Shown one piece after another: positions 18,230-27,097 of a stretch of DNA of 64,000 nt. A model generated the notes under the pieces. It was not told where the DNA came from. It saw only the letters and a program-made list of their open reading frames with translations, and searched no databases. Origin of the DNA: Thermoflavifilum sp. (GTDB lineage: Bacteria; Bacteroidota; Bacteroidia; Chitinophagales; Chitinophagaceae); the NCBI GenBank assembly GCA_023511875.1, contig JAIMAQ010000002.1:248001-312000 (forward strand). Reading direction: 5' to 3'. Position numbers and translations under genes: made by a program. Positions within the stretch are counted from its first letter, which is position 1. Each line of letters opens with the position of its first letter.

Positions 18230-19912
18230 ATGAAATGGAATTGTATTTTATTAGCATGCTTGTCGATTGCTCATTCAGGATATACCCAAAAGCAAATCGT
18301 TGAATCACCGCCATGGCAGCCCGATCTGGGGAATGGTTATTATCGTAATCCAGTAATTTTTGCCGATTATTCCGACCCCGATGTATGCCGTGTAGGTAAA
18401 GATTATTATTTGGTGGCTTCTAGCTTCGACGCTGTGCCAGGCCTCCCTATATTACATTCTCGCGATTTGGTAAACTGGACCATTATTGGGCATGCCCTTC
18501 CAAGGCTAACTCCCGAAGATCGTTATACCCAAACCCAACATGGCAATGGCGTTTGGGCGCCTGCAATTCGTTTTCATCGCGATTCGTTTTACTTGTATTA
18601 CCCCGATCCAGATATAGGAATTTACTTGGTCAAAGCGCGACAACCGCAGGGGCCGTGGACAAAGCCCGTGCTCGTATTAAAAGGCAAAGGATTGATTGAC
18701 CCTTGTCCATTTTGGGACGACGATGGGAAAGCCTATCTCATTCATGCATTTGCTGGTAGTCGTTCCGGGATCAAAAGTATTTTGGTTATCCATCAAATGA
18801 ATCATGAGGGTACACGCGTCTTAGATCATGGAGTGATTGTGTACGATGGTCATGGCATCGATCCCACAATAGAAGGGCCTAAGCTATATAAACGCAATGG
18901 ATATTATTACATTTTCGCCCCAGCGGGGGGTGTGCCTAATGGATATCAACTGGTATTGCGAGCCACACATATCTATGGCCCTTACGAGCGAAAAATTGTT
19001 CTACATCAGGGAAATACGGAGATCAATGGTCCACACCAAGGTGCATGGATCACTACCCCAGATGGTGCACAAGATTGGTTTATTCATTTTCGCGATATGG
19101 GGCCTTATGGAAGAGTCATTTACCTAGAACCTATGCAGTGGCAACACGATTGGCCCGTGATTGGTGTGGATCAAAATGGTGATGATGTAGGAGAACCGGT
19201 AGAAACCTATACTAAACCCGCGGTGGGCACACCTCAGACCATTCAAGTACCACAAACATCAGATGCATTTCTTCAGCATCACTTGGGGTTACAATGGCAA
19301 TGGCAGGCAAATCCAGAGCCCACGTGGTATTACCTCAAAAATACAGGTGGATTACGTCTTTACGCGTTACCTTCTGGCATGCCCATACATAACCTATGGG
19401 ATCTGCCACAAGTATTGATGCAAAAATTTCCTGCGCCTCGCTTTCAGGCTACTATGCGTTGCCATTTTTATCCCTTGAAAAATGGTGATCAAGGCGGACT
19501 GATCGTGATGGGAACAAGCTATGCTCATTTGTCTTTGCAGCAACATGCAGATGGTATTCACCTGATCTATGCTATTTGTACTCATGCCGATCAAGGAAAT
19601 ACTGAGCAGATCCAAGAAGATTATCTGCTGAGAGATAGTACAGTTTGGCTTAGGGTAAGAGTTGATTCACCAGCTATTTGCACATTTAGTTATAGTTTAG
19701 ACGGGAAAAATTTTATATCCATGCAAAAAACTTTTCTCGCACAGCCGGGTAAATGGATAGGTGCTAAACTGGGAGTATATTGCAGGAGCAATATACAAAG
19801 CAATGATGCAGGATATTTGGATATTGATGGATTTCAAATAGATCCTGTAAATGCATCTACAGTTGTGCAAAGAAAGCCTTTAAAAAGGGTTTTGCCGGCA
19901 AAGAAGCGATGA
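18230..19912 (+). CDS. Glycoside hydrolase family 43 enzyme
   Basis: 560 residues with a signal peptide. The N-terminal five-bladed propeller carries the GH43 triad: Asp49 in SDPDV (base), Asp158 in GLIDPCPFWDDDG, and Glu215 in TIEGPKLY (acid). The C-terminal 200 residues form a beta-sandwich of the GH43_C2/DUF1349 type. GH43 members act on arabinofuranosides or xylosides, so arabinan side chains or xylogalacturonan are likely substrates here; the choice cannot be made by eye. It is the last gene of the pectin operon. Its final 56 bases overlap the end of crtY on the other strand. Confidence 0.92.
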   Translation: MKWNCILLACLSIAHSGYTQKQIVESPPWQPDLGNGYYRNPVIFADYSDPDVCRVGKDYYLVASSFDAVPGLPILHSRDLVNWTIIGHALPRLTPEDRYTQTQHGNGVWAPAIRFHRDSFYLYYPDPDIGIYLVKARQPQGPWTKPVLVLKGKGLIDPCPFWDDDGKAYLIHAFAGSRSGIKSILVIHQMNHEGTRVLDHGVIVYDGHGIDPTIEGPKLYKRNGYYYIFAPAGGVPNGYQLVLRATHIYGPYERKIVLHQGNTEINGPHQGAWITTPDGAQDWFIHFRDMGPYGRVIYLEPMQWQHDWPVIGVDQNGDDVGEPVETYTKPAVGTPQTIQVPQTSDAFLQHHLGLQWQWQANPEPTWYYLKNTGGLRLYALPSGMPIHNLWDLPQVLMQKFPAPRFQATMRCHFYPLKNGDQGGLIVMGTSYAHLSLQQHADGIHLIYAICTHADQGNTEQIQEDYLLRDSTVWLRVRVDSPAICTFSYSLDGKNFISMQKTFLAQPGKWIGAKLGVYCRSNIQSNDAGYLDIDGFQIDPVNASTVVQRKPLKRVLPAKKR

Positions 19913-21023
19913 TGTGTAAATCTTCTACCCAACTCGATTGGTTGTTGAGAAAACGAAGTACCGAAGCTGGAGCATTTTTTTCAAATAAAATTTTGAACAA
20001 TTGATCACCTGGATATAATTGATGTTGAAGTACATGTAACAGCAATTGATCATACCATCTGTATATGCGTTGATGTAAAGTGGGTGAAAGCTGAGGCTTG
20101 CCAGTTTTTTCCCAGGCTCTTATTAATGCATCGCTATGCTGTTGAATAAAAGAAAATGTATATCCAGTTGACGCTTTTGTTTGTCCTCCTGCAGTACCCA
20201 AATAAATGATAGGCCCATGCTGAGAAGGAAAGTTAAAATCTGTCATGGGTATTTTACCCTGTTCTTCCTCAATAATATCGTAAGTAATGTTAGGATAATG
20301 TTGTTGCATATAGTTATAAATGCAGGTATTATAGGCTTCTGCAACAAGTAAATGTGTAGAAAATACAGTGTATTCTAGCAAGGCATCTTGAGAAGAAGTG
20401 GGCAACACATACATGAAAGCTGTAGCATTTTGCTGTGGCACTCTGAAATCCATTAAGATGATGCTTTTGGGATCAAATGTGGGTTTATGCATGTGTACAA
20501 ACCATCCACGGAAATGTTGCCAGAGAAAATGTTTGTAACTGTTTGCTGGAAAGGCTGGAGGTAAGGAATTAAATACGTATGAAGCCTGGATATGATGAGA
20601 GGTGGTATGTACAATAGCGTGCGTTTGTTGATGTTCGATATTTAATACTGGTTCATACAGCCAACCTATTTTGCGGTGAGGATGCTGGCTTTGGGCATGT
20701 TGCAACCGATCATGAGCAAATCGATAGAAATCAACGCTGCGAATCATCTTATAGGCAAATGGATGGAAAGATAAATTTAACTGATGATGATGGGTATAAA
20801 TCTTTGCTTTTTCCCAACGATGATATACGATCGATTCAAAAAAGCCAGGTTGTGTTTCCCAGAAACACCAGGTATGATCATTTTCTTGTTTAGATTGCTG
20901 ATCGATCAATAAAATATTTAGCGAGGCAAGAGCAGGCGATTGCAGTATTCGCAAGGCCAGGCTAAGACCCGCGCAGCCAGCACCGGCAAACACTACATCA
21001 TAATGCAACAGCTTTTTGGGCAC
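19857..21023 (-). CDS. crtY: Lycopene beta-cyclase, CrtY type
   Basis: 388 residues, flavoprotein of the CrtY/lycopene cyclase family that converts lycopene to beta-carotene. It shows the dinucleotide-binding motif GAGCAGLSLAL at the N-terminus, HTWCFWE, a central MDFRVPQ segment and YLGTAGGQTKASTGYTF, all typical of the family. It is the last gene of the carotenoid operon, 7 bases after crtZ. The C-terminus FLKAFFAQL is encoded inside the end of the convergent GH43 gene. Confidence 0.95.
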   Translation of the reverse strand: MPKKLLHYDVVFAGAGCAGLSLALRILQSPALASLNILLIDQQSKQENDHTWCFWETQPGFFESIVYHRWEKAKIYTHHHQLNLSFHPFAYKMIRSVDFYRFAHDRLQHAQSQHPHRKIGWLYEPVLNIEHQQTHAIVHTTSHHIQASYVFNSLPPAFPANSYKHFLWQHFRGWFVHMHKPTFDPKSIILMDFRVPQQNATAFMYVLPTSSQDALLEYTVFSTHLLVAEAYNTCIYNYMQQHYPNITYDIIEEEQGKIPMTDFNFPSQHGPIIYLGTAGGQTKASTGYTFSFIQQHSDALIRAWEKTGKPQLSPTLHQRIYRWYDQLLLHVLQHQLYPGDQLFKILFEKNAPASVLRFLNNQSSWVEDLHIIASLPAKPFLKAFFAQL

Positions 21024-21030
21024 AGATCAA

Positions 21031-21531
21031 TCAATTCACACGATTAGAACTATTGGCAGAAGCAATCTCTTCATCGCGTGCCACTTTATCCCAGTATTTT
21101 TTAGCCACAATGAGCATCCCAAACGACTCACCATCTTCTTTACTTAAATGCTTATGATGCATCTTATGTGCCCAACGAAGTACCCGAATATATTTGTTTT
21201 GAGAATGAGTAAACCATTTAAAGCGTTGATGGATGATCACATCGTGAACTAAGAAATAAGCAATTCCATATATTAAAATACCCGTGCCAATTGCTGCTAA
21301 CCAACCAATGTGTTGGGTAGCGCCGAAATATAAACATAGAAAACTTGGGATAGCGAAGATCAAGAAAAAAGCATCGTTTTTTTCAAAAAATCCAGGTTGC
21401 TTTTGATGATGATCTTTATGCAACACCCATAAAAATCCGTGCATGACGTATTTATGAGTAAACCAGGCAACGCCTTCCATGAAAAAGAAGGTAACCACAA
21501 CGATCAAAATATACAATAGTACTTGTAGCAT
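21031..21531 (-). CDS. crtZ: Beta-carotene hydroxylase, CrtZ type
   Basis: 166-residue non-haem di-iron membrane hydroxylase of the fatty acid hydroxylase superfamily. The histidine clusters are complete: HKYVMH, HKDHH, HDVIIH and HKMHH, set between four hydrophobic helices. It hydroxylates both rings of beta-carotene to give zeaxanthin. Length matches CrtZ. It lies 12 bases after idi and just before crtY. The pathway in this operon therefore ends at zeaxanthin unless other genes elsewhere modify it. Confidence 0.96.
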   Translation of the reverse strand: MLQVLLYILIVVVTFFFMEGVAWFTHKYVMHGFLWVLHKDHHQKQPGFFEKNDAFFLIFAIPSFLCLYFGATQHIGWLAAIGTGILIYGIAYFLVHDVIIHQRFKWFTHSQNKYIRVLRWAHKMHHKHLSKEDGESFGMLIVAKKYWDKVARDEEIASANSSNRVN

Positions 21532-21543
21532 AGCGTACAGATT

Positions 21544-22086
21544 TTAAGGTGAAACCATCGTTTTGATTTCTAACCATTTATTTTTTACTTGTGGAAAAGC
21601 AAGTTTAAACCAAGCAGTAAATAGATCTGGATGAATCATCACTTGTTGCTCGATATGCTGTATGGGATAGTAAGCTATTGAAAGCACTTCAGATTGGTTG
21701 GGATCAAATCTACCTTCGTAGACACCGATGTACACATGATCCCATTCAAATTCAATGAGTCTATTGGGTAATTTTACGCGGTACATAAAAGAAAAAGCAG
21801 GATGAAGCGGGCAGTCGATGCCCAATTCTTCTTTTAGTCGACGATGTGCGGCAGCTTCGGTATCTTCACCAGGATGAGGATGGCTACAGCAGGCATTAGT
21901 CCACAACCCAGCAGAATGGTATTTATTATGTGCACGTTGTTGTAAAAGCATTTCACCTTGTGTATTGAACAGAAAAACAGAAAATGCACGATGCAATAAG
22001 CCCAACTGATGCACCCGCATTTTTTCCATGGTACCTACCATGTTATCGTGTTCATCTACTAAAATTAACATTTGTTCTTGTATCAT
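21544..22086 (-). CDS. idi: Isopentenyl-diphosphate delta-isomerase, type 1
   Basis: 180 residues, Nudix-fold enzyme that interconverts isopentenyl and dimethylallyl diphosphate. The active-site cysteine lies in TNACCSHP (Cys67 by alignment with type 1 enzymes), and the Nudix-like helix is AAAHRRLKEELGI. A Glu-rich metal/active site is seen at FEWDHVY. It overlaps crtB by 4 bases (ATGA type), so the two are translationally coupled. Its position in the crt operon suggests it raises precursor supply when pigment is made. Confidence 0.96.
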   Translation of the reverse strand: MIQEQMLILVDEHDNMVGTMEKMRVHQLGLLHRAFSVFLFNTQGEMLLQQRAHNKYHSAGLWTNACCSHPHPGEDTEAAAHRRLKEELGIDCPLHPAFSFMYRVKLPNRLIEFEWDHVYIGVYEGRFDPNQSEVLSIAYYPIQHIEQQVMIHPDLFTAWFKLAFPQVKNKWLEIKTMVSP

Positions 22087-22934
22087 ATTCTATTGAGTTG
22101 ATGTGAAATACCTGCCCGCAACATAATCATGAGCTTATGGTGATTAGGAATTCGAATGCGTTGTTGCATGATTTTTTCAGGTGATGTGCGCTGAATTTTT
22201 CTGAATAAAGCATAAAAATACCGATAAGCCACATACACGCCAAATCTAGACTTAATGGGTAGGCGTTTAATACCTTGAAGGCCAACGGCAAATTCCTGTT
22301 CGATATCGGATTCTATTTGTCGCTTCGCTGTTTCATCCAAAGAGCTTTTGTGTACAAATTCTGGAAAATAACTGCGCTTGAGTATTTGGTAATCGGTTTG
22401 TATGTCGCGTAAAAAATTCACTTTTTGAAAAGCTGATCCTAATGCACGTGCCGGTTGTTTTAAAGATTCATACAATTGCCTATTACCTTCACAAAATACA
22501 CACAAACACATTAACCCTACTACTTCTGCTGAGCCATAGACATAAGTTTGTAATTCAGCCCGTTGATAATAAGTATGTTTTTCTAAATCAAGATACATAC
22601 TTTTAAAAAAGGCATCCACTAGCTCTAGGGGAATGTGGTATCGATGAATAGTTTCCTGAAAAGATTGCAATACTGGATTGGTACTGATTTTCTGTTCAAT
22701 AGCGTCATAGGTATCTTGTTCAAATTTTTTCAAGAGAGTAGTTTTATCATAATCGTGAAAACTATCTACAATCTCATCGGCAAGGCGTACAAAACCATAT
22801 ATTGCACATATTGGATAGCGTAGGTCTCGATGAAGCATACGAATAGACGTAGAGAAAGAAGTGCTATAATGATGCGTAATTTCCCAGCTGCAATGTTGGC
22901 TAACGTGTTGGTATAATTGAATTCGATTGTTCAT
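22083..22934 (-). CDS. crtB: Phytoene synthase
   Basis: 283 residues, squalene/phytoene synthase family. It joins two geranylgeranyl diphosphates to phytoene. The first Asp-rich motif is visible as LADEIVD and the second as LRDIQTD within NFLRDIQTDYQILKRSYFP. Start and end overlap crtI and idi by 4 bases each. The gene for geranylgeranyl diphosphate synthase (crtE) is not in this window. Confidence 0.96.
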   Translation of the reverse strand: MNNRIQLYQHVSQHCSWEITHHYSTSFSTSIRMLHRDLRYPICAIYGFVRLADEIVDSFHDYDKTTLLKKFEQDTYDAIEQKISTNPVLQSFQETIHRYHIPLELVDAFFKSMYLDLEKHTYYQRAELQTYVYGSAEVVGLMCLCVFCEGNRQLYESLKQPARALGSAFQKVNFLRDIQTDYQILKRSYFPEFVHKSSLDETAKRQIESDIEQEFAVGLQGIKRLPIKSRFGVYVAYRYFYALFRKIQRTSPEKIMQQRIRIPNHHKLMIMLRAGISHQLNRI

Positions 22935-24424
22935 ATTTTTATTAACAATTGATGTAGGTATTTTGTTATCAGTCGAGCAGCTATTTCCCCGGAGATGATA
23001 GTGGAGGGCATGCCAGGGCCCGGCACAGTGAGCTGCCCCGCAAAAAATAGGTTTTCGAGTTTAGAGCTACGCATACGAGGTTTCCACACGGCTGTTTGTC
23101 GCAGTGTATTGGCCAATCCATAGGCATTTCCTTGAAAGGCATGATATCTATTTACGAAATCACTTGGGCCAAAAGTTTTCAAATACACGATATCATCTGC
23201 GGTAATCGATTGGCCTGTATATCGTTGTATGCGTTTAAGGATTTCCTGCAAATATTTTTCCCGCATTTTTTCGTCATCACCCTTTAAGCCGGCTGCTACG
23301 GGGATCAATGCAAAAAGATTTTCATGGTGAGGAGGAGCTACCTGGGAATCAGTGATTGAGGGTGCAGATAGGTAAAACAATGGATCATTGGGCCATTGAG
23401 GGTGGGTATAAATCTGTCGAGCATGCTGGTCGAAATCGGTATCGAAAAACAAGTTATGGTGGCGCAATCCAGGAATATTTTTATTTATACCGACATAATA
23501 TAACATACAGGATGGGGAAAGCTGCCGGGATTGCCAATAACTTGAGCTGTATTGCCGGTATTTTTCAGGTATTAGTTTTTGTTCTACATGATGATAATCG
23601 GCCGTAGCCAGCACGGCATCGGCTGAGTAGACTTCGCCAGCGACTGATACACCTTTTGCCCGATCATTTTTTACCCATATTTGCTCTACGGGTGTTTGGA
23701 AATGAAATTGCACTCCCAACGACAAGGCTAGTGAATACATGGCTTTGACTACCTCATAGATTCCTCCTTTGGGATACCAGGTTCCTTTTACAATGTCGGC
23801 ATAGTTCATGAGACTATACAGAGCGGGCGTGTGTTTGGGCAGTGCACCGAGAAACAAGACGGGGAATTGCATGATTTGGCGAATTCGCCAATCTTTAAAA
23901 TGCTGTGCAATATGTTTTTGAATAGAGCTAAGTAGGTGGAGTTTTCCAATAGCTTTCCAGATATCGCGATCCCAGAATTCCCACCAGGATAATCCGGGTT
24001 TAAACACAAATTTTTGCATAGCCACAGTATACTTATGAGTGGCTTCCTGAAGATAGTGCTGTAGGGAGTGCCCGCTGCCAGGCTCCCATTTTTCAAATAA
24101 TTCGGTTAATGCCGCTGAGCCAGCCGGAATATCGATAGGCCCATCATTCCAGAAGATGCGATAAGAAGGATCGAGGCGTATGAGTTGGTAATAATCACTA
24201 GGTTGATGGCCAAATTGTTGAAAAAAACGTTCAAATACGTCGGGCATCCAATACCAGCTTGGGCCCAAGTCAAATCGAAATCCTTTCTCCTCCAATAGTC
24301 CAGCACGCCCACCAGGCTGGTCGAGCGCTTCAAAAACATGCACCTCTACGCCTTGTTGGGCTAAAAAACAAGAAGCCGATAATCCTGCAAAACCGCTTCC
24401 AATAATGATTACACGATTGTGCAT
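22931..24424 (-). CDS. crtI: Phytoene desaturase
   Basis: 497 residues, FAD-dependent CrtI-type desaturase that takes phytoene to lycopene. The FAD motif is at the N-terminus (IIIGSGFAGLSAS, with HVFEALDQPGGRAG), and the C-terminal family signature reads FFAGQLTVPGPGMPS followed by SGEIAARLI. Length is normal. It begins 7 bases after the ECF sigma gene, which marks the first enzyme gene of the operon. Confidence 0.96.
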   Translation of the reverse strand: MHNRVIIIGSGFAGLSASCFLAQQGVEVHVFEALDQPGGRAGLLEEKGFRFDLGPSWYWMPDVFERFFQQFGHQPSDYYQLIRLDPSYRIFWNDGPIDIPAGSAALTELFEKWEPGSGHSLQHYLQEATHKYTVAMQKFVFKPGLSWWEFWDRDIWKAIGKLHLLSSIQKHIAQHFKDWRIRQIMQFPVLFLGALPKHTPALYSLMNYADIVKGTWYPKGGIYEVVKAMYSLALSLGVQFHFQTPVEQIWVKNDRAKGVSVAGEVYSADAVLATADYHHVEQKLIPEKYRQYSSSYWQSRQLSPSCMLYYVGINKNIPGLRHHNLFFDTDFDQHARQIYTHPQWPNDPLFYLSAPSITDSQVAPPHHENLFALIPVAAGLKGDDEKMREKYLQEILKRIQRYTGQSITADDIVYLKTFGPSDFVNRYHAFQGNAYGLANTLRQTAVWKPRMRSSKLENLFFAGQLTVPGPGMPSTIISGEIAARLITKYLHQLLIKI

Positions 24425-24431
24425 GTGCTAT

Positions 24432-24932
24432 TTATTTACGAGAAATCCTGGCTTTTAGTATTTTCCGAGCAAAATGTATTCGGCTCTTGATAGTGCCCAA
24501 TGGCTCCTTTAGCATATCGGCAATTTCTTCGTATTTATACCCCTCAAAATACATGAGAAATGGCCTTTTGAAAATATCTGGAAGCTTATGTATAGCCTCA
24601 CGGATCTCTCGATAACGCAAAGTAGACTCAGCAGTGTTGTGGGTTGAAAATCCAAAGCGATGCGAAAGTGCGGCTGTAGCTGTAGAATCGAAAAGCACCC
24701 GATGTTTGCTTTTTCGACGGTATTCGTTGATGAAAATATTTTTCATGATGGTATAAAGCCAGGCTTTGATGTTGGTACCAGGGTGATATTTTTCTCGGTT
24801 TACCAATGCTCGGCAAACTGTTTCCTGAAACAGATCTTCAGCGAGCACAGGATCGCGAGTCAGGTGAACGGCATAGGGCATCAGGAAGGCCGATTCTGTG
24901 GTCAGCAATTCCTGGAATTCAGAAGCAGACAT
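24432..24932 (-). CDS. ECF sigma factor in the carotenoid operon
   Basis: 166 residues. Region 2 spans about residues 15-80 (DPVLAEDLFQETVCRAL, then KAWLYTIMKNIFINEYR), and region 4 about 110-160 (LPDIFKRPFLMYFEGYKYEEIADML and GTIKSRIHFARKIL). This is the layout of extracytoplasmic function sigma factors, which direct RNA polymerase to a small regulon. It lies 26 bases after the MerR-type gene and 7 bases before crtI, so it is part of the same transcript. No anti-sigma gene is next to it. The expected target is the crt operon promoter, by analogy with CarQ of Myxococcus; this is inference. Confidence 0.93.
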   Translation of the reverse strand: MSASEFQELLTTESAFLMPYAVHLTRDPVLAEDLFQETVCRALVNREKYHPGTNIKAWLYTIMKNIFINEYRRKSKHRVLFDSTATAALSHRFGFSTHNTAESTLRYREIREAIHKLPDIFKRPFLMYFEGYKYEEIADMLKEPLGTIKSRIHFARKILKARISRK

Positions 24933-24958
24933 ATTGTTTAACTTTTATCATCACAAAG

Positions 24959-25885
24959 TTAAACAATTCTTTTAGATAACTGGCTGGCGTTTAGAAAAAT
25001 TTTTTCGATTTCTTGGAGTAGTTCTTGTTGGGAATATAGGAGATGTATGTTGGGGAAAGATTTTTTAGGAATTTGCTCCACTACTGGACCAGATATGTAT
25101 ATATCAGCGTTTTTTAAGTGAATGCTGAGCTGGTGCACATAAAATTGGAGATTAAATCCAGGAGGTATAGAGGTGAGGTGTGTGAATAAAAGGGAGATAT
25201 TTTTTTGTTTAACTATATATTCTATATTATTCAACGGAACACTCCCCCCCAGGTAGTAAATTTTTAATCCTCTTTGCTTGAGTAGATAATACAGATAAAG
25301 CAGACCTAGCTCGTGGTATTCGTCTTCAGGCAGGAAGAGTAAGGCTTCTTGATCAATGAGTTGGCGATTCACTAAGCTTTCAATACCTACAATAAGCTTT
25401 TGCCTAATCAGGCAACTCACCAAATGTTCGTGTACTGGATGGATACGATTGGTGCTCCACATTATACCAATGCGTTCTAAGAAAGGGAACAAAATAGCAT
25501 TCATGGTTTTCTGGATCCCTTTGTTGAGGATAAAATGGTCCAGAATTTCCTCCATGCCTACCACGTCTAGCTCGATCATACGGGTAATGAGCTCGTTGAC
25601 GAGTCGGTCGTTGAGGGCCTGATTTTGATGTAGTTCCAATACTTTTTCTTCTAGCTGCTCATCGTTCATCTTACTGATATGGGAAATCTTAAAACCATAT
25701 CGGATAAGCAGGGCAGCGTTGAGCAGTTTTTTTAATTCGTCGTTGGTATAATATCGAATATTGGTATCGGAGCGGCGAGGCTTCAAGAATCCATATCGTT
25801 GTTCCCAGATGCGGATGGTATGCGCCTTCACACCAGATAGGTTCTCTAAGTCTTTAATCGAAAAACGTTGTTCATCAATTTCCAT
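24959..25885 (-). CDS. MerR-type regulator with cobalamin-binding domain, CarH-like
   Basis: 308 residues from the ATG at 25885; a TTG two codons upstream is also in frame. Residues 7-75 form a MerR winged helix ([20 protein letters not shown], then [11 protein letters not shown]). Residues about 85-160 are a B12-binding helical cap, and 180-300 a Rossmann-like B12-binding domain. The motif Wx9EH that marks CarH-type photoreceptors is exact (Trp143, Glu153-His154), and ExHxxG is present as EYHELG with His191 as the probable cobalt ligand. Known CarH proteins repress carotenoid genes in the dark with adenosylcobalamin and release DNA in light. Being the first gene of the crt operon, it probably also controls itself. 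Confidence 0.9.
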
Positions 25886-25888
25886 AAG

Positions 25889-25896
25889 CAAAAATA
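25889..25896 (-). promoter_or_regulatory. Possible -7 box TATTTTTG ahead of the carotenoid operon
   Basis: Read on the minus strand the sequence is TATTTTTG, fitting TAnnTTTG. It ends only 3 bases before the ATG at 25885, so the transcript would be leaderless or nearly so. No -33 TTTG sits at normal spacing. It may be the operon promoter, or chance in an AT-rich gap. Confidence 0.3.
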
Positions 25897-25956
25897 TATA
25901 TGCATTTCCACAATAACATTTTTCTCATCAATAAGTTTACACACGGGCGAAATGTT

Positions 25957-25964
25957 TAGCTTTG
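25957..25964 (+). promoter_or_regulatory. -7 box TAGCTTTG for gmd
   Basis: TAGCTTTG matches TAnnTTTG. It places the transcript start near 25970 and supports the GTG at 25988 as gmd start. In-frame ATG codons at 25868 and 25952 lie upstream of the box. Confidence 0.55.
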
Positions 25965-25987
25965 CTGAGAGGCAAAATATCAACTTA

Positions 25988-27097
25988 GTGAAAACAGCAT
26001 TGATTACTGGCATAACGGGGCAAGATGGGGCTTACTTAGCCGAGTTTTTGCTCAAAAAAGGTTATCGGGTACACGGCATTAAGCGGCGTAGCTCGCTGAT
26101 TAATACCGAACGGATCGATCATTTGTACCAAGATCCGCATGAGCCCGATCCACAGCTGATTTTGCATTATGGAGATTTAACGGATGCCACTAATCTTATT
26201 CGCATCATCCAAGAAACCCAACCCGATGAAATTTACAATTTGGCTGCTCAAAGCCATGTGAAGGTGAGTTTTGAAACTCCAGAATATACTGCCAATGCCG
26301 ATGCACTGGGCACTTTGAGGATCTTGGAAGCCATTCGCCTGCTGGGCTTAACGCAGAAAACACGTTTCTATCAAGCTTCTACTTCTGAGTTGTATGGATT
26401 GGCTCAAGAAATTCCCCAAAAAGAGACCACACCTTTTTATCCACGATCGCCTTATGCGGTGGCAAAGCTTTATGCCTACTGGATCACGGTCAACTATCGC
26501 GAAGCCTATGGCATGTTTGCCGTAAACGGTATTTTGTTTAACCACGAAAGCCCGATTCGTGGTGAGACCTTTGTAACGCGCAAGATTACGCGGGGAGTGG
26601 CACAAATTGTATTAGGGCAAGCCGATCAGATTTATCTGGGTAATCTGGATGCCCAGCGCGACTGGGGCCATGCAAAGGATTATGTAGAAGCCATGTGGTT
26701 GATGTTGCAGCAAGATAAGCCCGAAGATTACGTGATTGCTACGGGCCAAGCTACTTCTGTGCGGGAGTTTACGCGTATGGCTTTTGCACAGGTAGGAATA
26801 GATATTCGTTTTGAAGGAAAAGGTATAGCAGAAAAGGGGATTGTGGTGGCTTGTCGGGATGCCCGCTATCAGCTTCCCATTGGCAAAGTAGTGGTGAGCG
26901 TAGATCCTAATTATTTCAGGCCAACAGAGGTTGATTTGTTGATAGGCGATGCTTCTAAGGCTCGTCGACAACTGGGTTGGAAGCCACGTTATTCCTTGGA
27001 AGAGATGATTCGGGAAATGGTGGAAAGTGATATCCAATATTTTTCAACCCTGCATCCTTCATTGATTCAACAAAAATCACATGCGTCATACCGATAA
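25988..27097 (+). CDS. gmd: GDP-mannose 4,6-dehydratase
   Basis: 369 residues from the GTG at 25988, close to the usual 370. The longer frame from 25868 adds a leader unlike the family and lies upstream of the promoter box. It is an extended SDR enzyme: [19 protein letters not shown] is the NADP motif, and [15 protein letters not shown] holds the catalytic Tyr and Lys. Family segments ASTSELYG and [18 protein letters not shown] are intact. It makes GDP-4-keto-6-deoxymannose, the substrate of fcl, whose start lies inside the end of this gene (17-base overlap). The product feeds fucosylated surface polysaccharides. Confidence 0.96.

Follow-up and report, generated by a model that had tools for sequence, protein, structure and literature searches.

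A CarH-like regulator and an ECF sigma factor in a conserved Chitinophagaceae carotenoid operon: comparison predicts an operator before the sigma gene and a sigma-type promoter before the regulator gene

B12 photoreceptors of the CarH/LitR type, described in Thermus, Bacillus megaterium and the Myxococcales, act on carotenoid targets through operators built of tandem 11-bp direct repeats that contain TnnACA (PMC9304148, cited from excerpts, as are the other papers named here). The family is defined by the motif Wx9EH together with ExHx2Gx41SxV/Tx22-27GG, and in light-exposed Thermus CarH the His beside the Trp is a ligand (PMC8156234). In Myxococcus xanthus the membrane anti-sigma factor CarR restrains the extracytoplasmic function (ECF) sigma factor CarQ until CarQ is freed by way of singlet oxygen; in the light, CarQ increases the expression of a carotenoid gene and of its own operon (PMC8156234). 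Streptomyces has a relay in which the B12 photoreceptor LitR controls litS, and the ECF sigma factor LitS transcribes from the crtE promoter (PMC12705666). Given LitR–LitS, a B12 photoreceptor that acts through an ECF factor is not new in principle. A merR gene with rpoE is already in print for a crt cluster of Echinicola (PMC8683446), and merR for those of Dyadobacter and Nonlabens (PMC11573002, PMC11855829); these clusters have a like gene content, which the excerpts connect neither with CarH, B12 or light nor with an operator. For light-pigmented Chryseobacterium, the excerpt of PMC7064467 states that car/lit genes were not found and that the regulator was not known. Here we report on an operon of this kind in a 64,000-nucleotide stretch of Thermoflavifilum sp. 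DNA (contig JAIMAQ010000002.1, positions 248,001–312,000; hereafter the window, to which all coordinates refer), for which comparison of related loci predicts an operator before the ECF gene and an ECF-type promoter before merR.

The operon, in a Chitinophagaceae genome of 2.7 Mb, consists of seven head-to-tail genes on the minus strand (19857–25885), encoding in order a MerR/B12 protein, an ECF sigma factor, CrtI, CrtB, Idi, a CrtZ-like protein and CrtY, with intergenic gaps of 26, 7, -4, -4, 12 and 7 nt. An earlier note on this DNA had placed a CarH-like gene, an ECF gene and the crt genes in one operon, with the five pigment genes following at gaps of 26 bases or less; open reading frames (ORFs), Pfam assignments and a gene order conserved in relatives uphold the operon, and the largest measured gap is indeed 26 nt. 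Set beside the described systems, the locus shares with CarH/LitR the MerR-type domain, a cobalamin domain bearing Wx9EH and ExHxxG, the carotenoid targets and TnnACA in the half-site; the neighborhood of Thermus carH (photolyase, phytoene synthase, NDUFA9-type and flavin reductase genes) holds kinds of genes that the predicted operator precedes in Bacteroidia. It differs from CarH/LitR in that other residues stand for the Ser and Gly in the latter half of its B12 motif, in that a gene for an ECF sigma factor is the first predicted target, and in that the predicted operator is an inverted repeat with a 16/17-bp spacer, often doubled at 53–57 bp, rather than a series of tandem 11-bp direct repeats. 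With LitR–LitS of Streptomyces coelicolor it would share a B12 photoreceptor that governs an ECF gene and a sigma factor that directs crt (both steps predicted here), but it belongs to a different phylum, its regulator, sigma and enzyme genes are co-directional in one operon, its predicted operator lies between merR and the sigma gene, and a predicted sigma promoter before merR adds a negative loop. Unlike in CarQ–CarR–CarS, no membrane anti-sigma factor such as CarR, nor any other anti-sigma gene, was seen among the genes of the operon (Pfam, NCBIfam), and control here appears transcriptional. In the open-licence literature we found neither the operator described below nor a Bacteroidota relay of this sort, and no account of rhodopsin genes governed by a site of this kind.

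On the genomic evidence, the operon is a conserved trait of the Chitinophagaceae and no local oddity. Within a family sample of 147 genomes, 94 contain a MerR match (threshold E <= 0.001). We examined 88 loci, the window included: eight from a first search and 80 of the family MerR places, a subset of those listed in which the best-scoring were preferred (L003, the same record as L043, was retained in this initial survey and dropped from later counts; L numbers designate loci). An ECF gene lies directly downstream of merR in 55 of the 88 and crtI nearby in 9 more, the other 24 having neither; most of the 55 go on with CrtI, CrtB, Idi, CrtZ and CrtY. The motif counts below refer to 54 ECF-linked loci, again with the window among them. 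In a tree of 87 MerR proteins and Thermus CarH, all 54 fall into one clade of 62 (support 95/98), and the merR–ECF linkage therefore looks old; this reading is weakened by the MerR of L102 (adjoined by a divergent ECF gene), which falls outside the clade, by the very long outgroup branch and by a bootstrap that had not settled.

The palindrome that we propose as the operator, TTGTTTAA ... TTAAACAA, was first seen upstream of ECF genes located apart from merR, and it precedes all nine ECF genes that are apart or divergent from merR (15–16 of 16 letters, spacer 16 or 17). A scan of the 110 bp upstream of 56 ECF genes in merR regions (two of the nine among them) at a threshold of 14 of 16 letters found it before 53, where 20 shuffles gave 4.8 on average and never more than 8 (these and the 50 shuffles of the locus survey preserve dinucleotides, not relatedness); at this threshold it was not found before the other three (L068, L097, L099). 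The spacer was free to vary from 8 to 30, yet is 17 in 41 and 16 in 12 of the 53, and it stays at 16/17 across loci in which the merR–ECF distance varies. Two copies precede 38 of the 56 genes, three precede one and a single copy precedes 14, neighboring pairs starting 53–57 bp apart in 37 of 39 cases and the last arm ending 0–18 nt upstream of the ECF ATG. The window has a single, perfect copy at the merR–ECF junction, TTGTTTAA-N17-TTAAACAA at 24934–24966, which overlaps the stop codon of merR and stops 1 nt short of the ATG of the ECF gene. It also overlaps a match to the housekeeping -7 box, TAACTTTG (24954–24961, minus strand), which starts inside the left arm and fits TAnnTTTG, the sigma-A -7 box of Bacteroidota (PMC9723704). 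A -7 box likewise begins in the left arm across the set, as TAnnTT in 52 of 53 and as TAnnTTTG or TAnnTTTA in 43. Both arms contain TnnACA, the core of known CarH repeats.

The palindrome lies directly upstream of merR in five of the seven ECF-less merR–crt loci and between merR and crtI in merR–crtI loci of family f5 (L224, L225, L228, L233), and is therefore associated with MerR rather than with the ECF factor. It also precedes merR in 14 of the 54 linked loci (20 shuffles: mean 0.75, maximum 3), where in 13 of the 14 its right arm forms the AAC of a second element described below; this is not so in the window. The same association holds between genomes: the exact palindrome is present in 51 of the 94 family genomes with a MerR match and in none of the 53 without, and, in a phylum sample of 395 genomes (MerR threshold E <= 1e-15), in 53, comprising 51 of 84 with MerR and 2 of 311 without (Fisher p of 2e-13 and 5e-39, respectively, uncorrected for relatedness). 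A reversed control pattern is present in 4 of the 147 family genomes and, in the phylum sample, in 6 of 84 genomes with MerR vs 4 of 311 without; since this control also leans to MerR genomes, AT content accounts for a small part of the association. Three Thermoflavifilum genomes have one exact palindrome each, here the window site. We predict from these comparisons that the palindrome is the operator of the CarH-like regulator.

The regulator itself (24959–25885, minus strand; 308 aa from the ATG at 25885) has the pairing of a MerR-type DNA-binding domain with a cobalamin-binding domain that marks the CarH/LitR family (MerR_1 at 53 bits; B12-binding_2 at 27 bits, cut-off 23), and is 81% identical to its counterpart in a second genome of the genus (G014). 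Its closest solved-structure sequences are Thermus CarH (E 2e-16), and full-length Thermus CarH chains take Foldseek ranks 1–12 (E 3e-16 to 4e-13) for an AlphaFold model built from 9 sequences (predicted local distance difference score 86.2, predicted template-modeling score 0.68); the cobalamin domain of the model fits that of Thermus CarH at a target template-modeling score of ~0.79 and 3.6 Å. Trp143 and Glu153–His154 of Wx9EH (codons 25457–25459 and 25424–25429) and the axial His191 (25313–25315) stand where the earlier note had claimed them, with Glu189 and Gly194 completing ExHxxG. Wx9EH is kept in 52 of the 54 ECF-linked loci and Glu189 and His191 in all 54, so that these motifs are not chance; the Gly is present in 49. 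The position beside the Trp, Ser144 in the window regulator, is variable in relatives. AdoCbl (adenosylcobalamin) should be available in the host, whose genome carries a Cob_adeno_trans gene and two cobalamin riboswitches, preceding one MetE-like and one BtuB-like gene (labels obtained by reading the neighboring ORFs).

The second element lies upstream of merR. AAC-Nk-TTGT is found there with k=15 in 23 and with k=16 in 12 of the 54 ECF-linked loci, other values of k from 5 to 30 occurring in 0–5 loci each; with any base allowed before TGT, 50 of the 54 possess it. This any-base form is also present in six of the nine loci with an ECF gene apart from merR or divergent to it (L058, L060, L080, L087, L101, L102) and absent from all seven ECF-less merR–crt loci and all 17 remaining loci (6/33 over the non-linked loci as a whole). 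AAC in the -35 region is typical of ECF promoters, and AAC-N15/16-TTGT before merR looks like a promoter of that type; the putative window copy is TAAAC-N16-TGTTA (25914–25939, minus strand), with the same spacing in both sister species. In 35 of the 50 anchored sites TGT ends 9–13 nt before the merR ATG, and merR mRNAs from such sites may be nearly leaderless. We rejected the notion that this bipartite element is a mere repressor operator, as several loci have AACCTTTT or AACTTTTT without arm sequence; it is contradicted too by the seven ECF-less merR–crt loci, five with the palindrome, none with the element. Two further matches to the -7 box consensus lie nearby: TATTTTTG at 25889–25896, 3 bases ahead of the merR ATG, and TAGCTTTG at 25957–25964 on the plus strand, upstream of a divergent GDP-mannose dehydratase gene.

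Comparison among genomes thus establishes the order of the genes, the palindrome at a constant spacing and position, its association with MerR, and the presence of a second element resembling a promoter. With a likely CarH operator at the merR–ECF junction, the first gene to come under the regulator is most likely the sigma gene. The arrangement that we consider probable is one in which an AdoCbl-dependent light repressor acts through the palindrome on the ECF gene, the product of which then drives merR–ECF–crt, providing amplification and reset. The first gene product would be a CarH-type, light-sensing repressor which, bound to AdoCbl in the dark, would occupy the palindrome and cover the housekeeping -7 box of the ECF-crtI-crtB-idi-crtZ-crtY promoter. 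In the light, the cobalt–carbon bond would be broken and the repressor would leave, allowing sigma factor and enzymes to be made; the ECF factor would then read AAC-N15/16-TTGT ahead of merR and the whole merR–ECF–crt transcript would rise; amplification would come from the added sigma factor and enzymes, and reset, on the return of dark, from the added repressor. The match of protein to element, the part played by AdoCbl and light, and the direction of control are what we infer.

This arrangement modifies what the earlier note had envisaged, namely double control by light-relieved repression and by a sigma factor amplifying its own operon. Comparison suggests that both controls act together, with the difference that the regulator most likely acts on the sigma gene first. 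Self-amplification retains its footing in the promoter candidate before merR, and the expected drive on merR itself (the reset) is an addition. The 25890–25990 region, proposed as the promoter to assay, does hold the ECF-type candidate; the likely CarH operator lies inside the operon at 24934–24966. The sigma step is the weaker half of this two-step model.

A number of observations weigh against the two-step model, several of them in favor of rival explanations. The palindrome could be that of the CarH-like regulator and AAC-N15/16-TTGT be read by another sigma factor, leaving plain CarH repression with a passenger ECF gene whose product serves other genes. Indeed, a wider sigma regulon was not found with a loose ECF pattern across the 147 genomes (163 sites vs 223 for the control; by demanding TTT and TTGT, the pattern passes over the copy in the window itself); outside the family, the element occurs in just 5 of 19 merR upstream regions (L241, L242, L245, L249, L251) despite the frequent presence of ECF genes at these loci, with palindromes downstream of merR in 8 of the 19; and TTGT is also similar to motif SM5 (TAnnTTGY) of F. 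psychrophilum, a promoter class with no sigma factor assigned in the excerpt (PMC9723704). We nevertheless regard a passenger ECF gene as unlikely: the element is fixed in spacing in 50 of the 54 ECF-linked loci and, away from these, is present in six of nine loci in which the ECF gene is apart or divergent and absent from seven of seven merR–crt loci that have none. It seems less likely still that the regulator, in the manner of Myxococcus CarA, no longer senses B12 and light and answers redox state, a protein partner or another signal. The second half of the B12 motif differs, His236 (codon 25178–25180) replacing Ser (His236-x-Thr238) and Ser265–Gly266 replacing Gly–Gly; PF02310 scores 14.7 bits (cut-off 32.1); and a paralogue (L114, below) has lost the Trp, the Glu-His and the axial His, demonstrating that such loss happens. 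Weighing against the two-step model in addition, the NCBIfam CarH equivalog scores 84 bits (cut-off 400), and whole-chain superposition of the structural model on CarH is poor (root-mean-square deviation 7–20 Å, ascribed to domain orientation). The motif spacings (41 and 26) still fit though the letters differ, positions 236 and 265 having been placed by that spacing because the pairwise alignment with Thermus CarH, which the earlier note had proposed, is gapped in the Rossmann part. We therefore term the regulator CarH-like rather than a strict member, in view of the changed letters and the sub-threshold NCBIfam score. The substitutions are themselves conserved across the ECF-linked loci (His236 in 54/54, Ser-Gly in 53/54), and the invariant His236 may reflect a changed pocket for the nucleotide tail of the cobamide. 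Against loss of sensing stand the near-universal retention of Wx9EH (52/54) and the axial His (54/54), CarA being without Wx9EH (PMC8156234); the adenosyltransferase gene and cobalamin riboswitches of the genome; and the targets of the palindrome elsewhere (rhodopsins, a photolyase operon, crt genes), which are of kinds tied to light.

The remaining points concern the palindrome. By itself it names no protein, and a different regulator encoded elsewhere might bind it, the association with MerR being indirect; two of the 311 phylum-sample genomes without a MerR match do carry the exact site. This we find very improbable, as the palindrome co-occurs with MerR in two samples, adjoins merR in ECF-linked, ECF-less and merR–crtI loci alike, and contains in each arm TnnACA, the core found in CarH repeats. 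As for the two-step model, its predicted operator departs from the described form, the TnnACA arms making an inverted repeat with a 16/17-bp spacer where direct repeats would be looked for; 43 of the 94 MerR-bearing family genomes are without an exact palindrome; and, with the scan threshold loosened to 13 of 16 letters, shuffles reach 20.8 of 56 on average. A search of the window genome for additional operator targets gave none that we accept, sites with <=3 mismatches numbering 94 against 89 for the control.

Beyond the family, it is reasonably likely in our judgment that a CarH-like B12 repressor is Bacteroidia-wide, that its operator, TTGTTTAA-N16/17-TTAAACAA placed on a -7 box, defines a light regulon, and that an ECF gene has been slotted into this scheme in several families. 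The proposed members of the regulon, judged from the genes behind the palindrome, would be carotenoid genes, rhodopsins, photolyase, flavin reductase, fasciclin and SRPBCC-like proteins, and an ECF gene between operator and crtI would turn simple derepression into a relay with amplification and reset. Palindrome–ECF pairs occur in families f2 (L210, L211), f8 (L214, L215), f9 (L255, L259) and f10 (L217, L218, where 220–233 bp separate the two), which suggests that an ECF gene was inserted between the operator and crtI of an older merR–operator–crtI unit. In two loci of family f5 (L253, L256) an ECF gene 28% identical to that of the window stands beside merR and crtI; here the slot may be filled by a different sigma factor.

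The palindrome sites listed, which are a part of all sites, illustrate the range of neighbors. MerR, ECF or CrtI genes adjoin 25 of the 33 listed as L170–L202 (the window's included) and 10 of the 26 listed from the wider phylum sample (L209–L234). Rhodopsin genes (PF01036) lie 34–74 bp downstream of the palindrome in at least three genomes (L197:1501-1533, L212:1501-1532, L216:1501-1532), with a CrtY-like gene behind the rhodopsin in L197 and L212, which suggests that these rhodopsins come under the same light repressor. Fasciclin-domain genes follow the palindrome in at least six genomes (L188, L213, L219, L220, L221, L231; Pfam). Also among the sites listed are those before short-chain dehydrogenase genes (L198, L222; Pfam), a gene for a DUF2867/NAD-binding protein (L227), a flavin reductase gene (L230) and, at L176, an SRPBCC-like gene with photolyase behind it (the SRPBCC label for L176 and L232 is our own reading, without a Pfam match). 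Several sites may be due to chance: L184 and L223 are inside ORFs, and L170, L189, L196, L209, L226, L229 and L234 have no evident light link. The first of these (L170:1501-1532) lies ~160 bp upstream of a primary-sigma-like gene, whose product has sigma-70 regions 1.2 to 4.

With a candidate regulator, a predicted 33-bp operator and a putative promoter of the sigma type, light control of carotenoids becomes directly testable in many Bacteroidota other than that Chryseobacterium, and the operator would allow light regulons, also those with rhodopsins, to be recognized in genome sequences. If the model is right, the circuit is a compact natural light relay with an amplifier and a reset; to our knowledge, few light-control tools exist for Bacteroidota.

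Some relatives of the regulator depart from the common form. L114 (genome G132, which holds another copy, L096) is without the Trp, the Glu-His and the axial His, and is possibly a B12-independent, CarA-like form. A second group of MerR/B12 paralogues in the Chitinophagaceae (several of L103–L120) lies away from crt genes and often has ExHxxP in place of ExHxxG. In L100 (genome G106) the MerR protein sits inside a 561-aa open frame, ~2x the normal length, a possible fusion.

The other genes of the operon, all on the minus strand, were assigned as follows. The ECF sigma factor (24432–24932, 166 aa) consists of regions 2 and 4 only, as ECF factors do (Sigma70_r2 and Sigma70_r4_2, above the Pfam cut-off). 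CrtB, the phytoene synthase (22083–22934), matches SQS_PSY, and the CrtY-type lycopene cyclase (19857–21023) matches Lycopene_cycl, both above the Pfam cut-off; Idi, the isopentenyl-diphosphate isomerase (21544–22086), matches NUDIX above its cut-off and also passes that of NCBIfam. The protein encoded at 21031–21531, for which neither Pfam nor NCBIfam gave a match, we take from its context to be a CrtZ-like carotene hydroxylase. The CrtI-type phytoene desaturase (22931–24424) passes the NCBIfam equivalog cut-off for CrtID, a bifunctional phytoene/3,4-desaturase (692 bits against 640), and a more desaturated pigment would fit a CrtI of this type.

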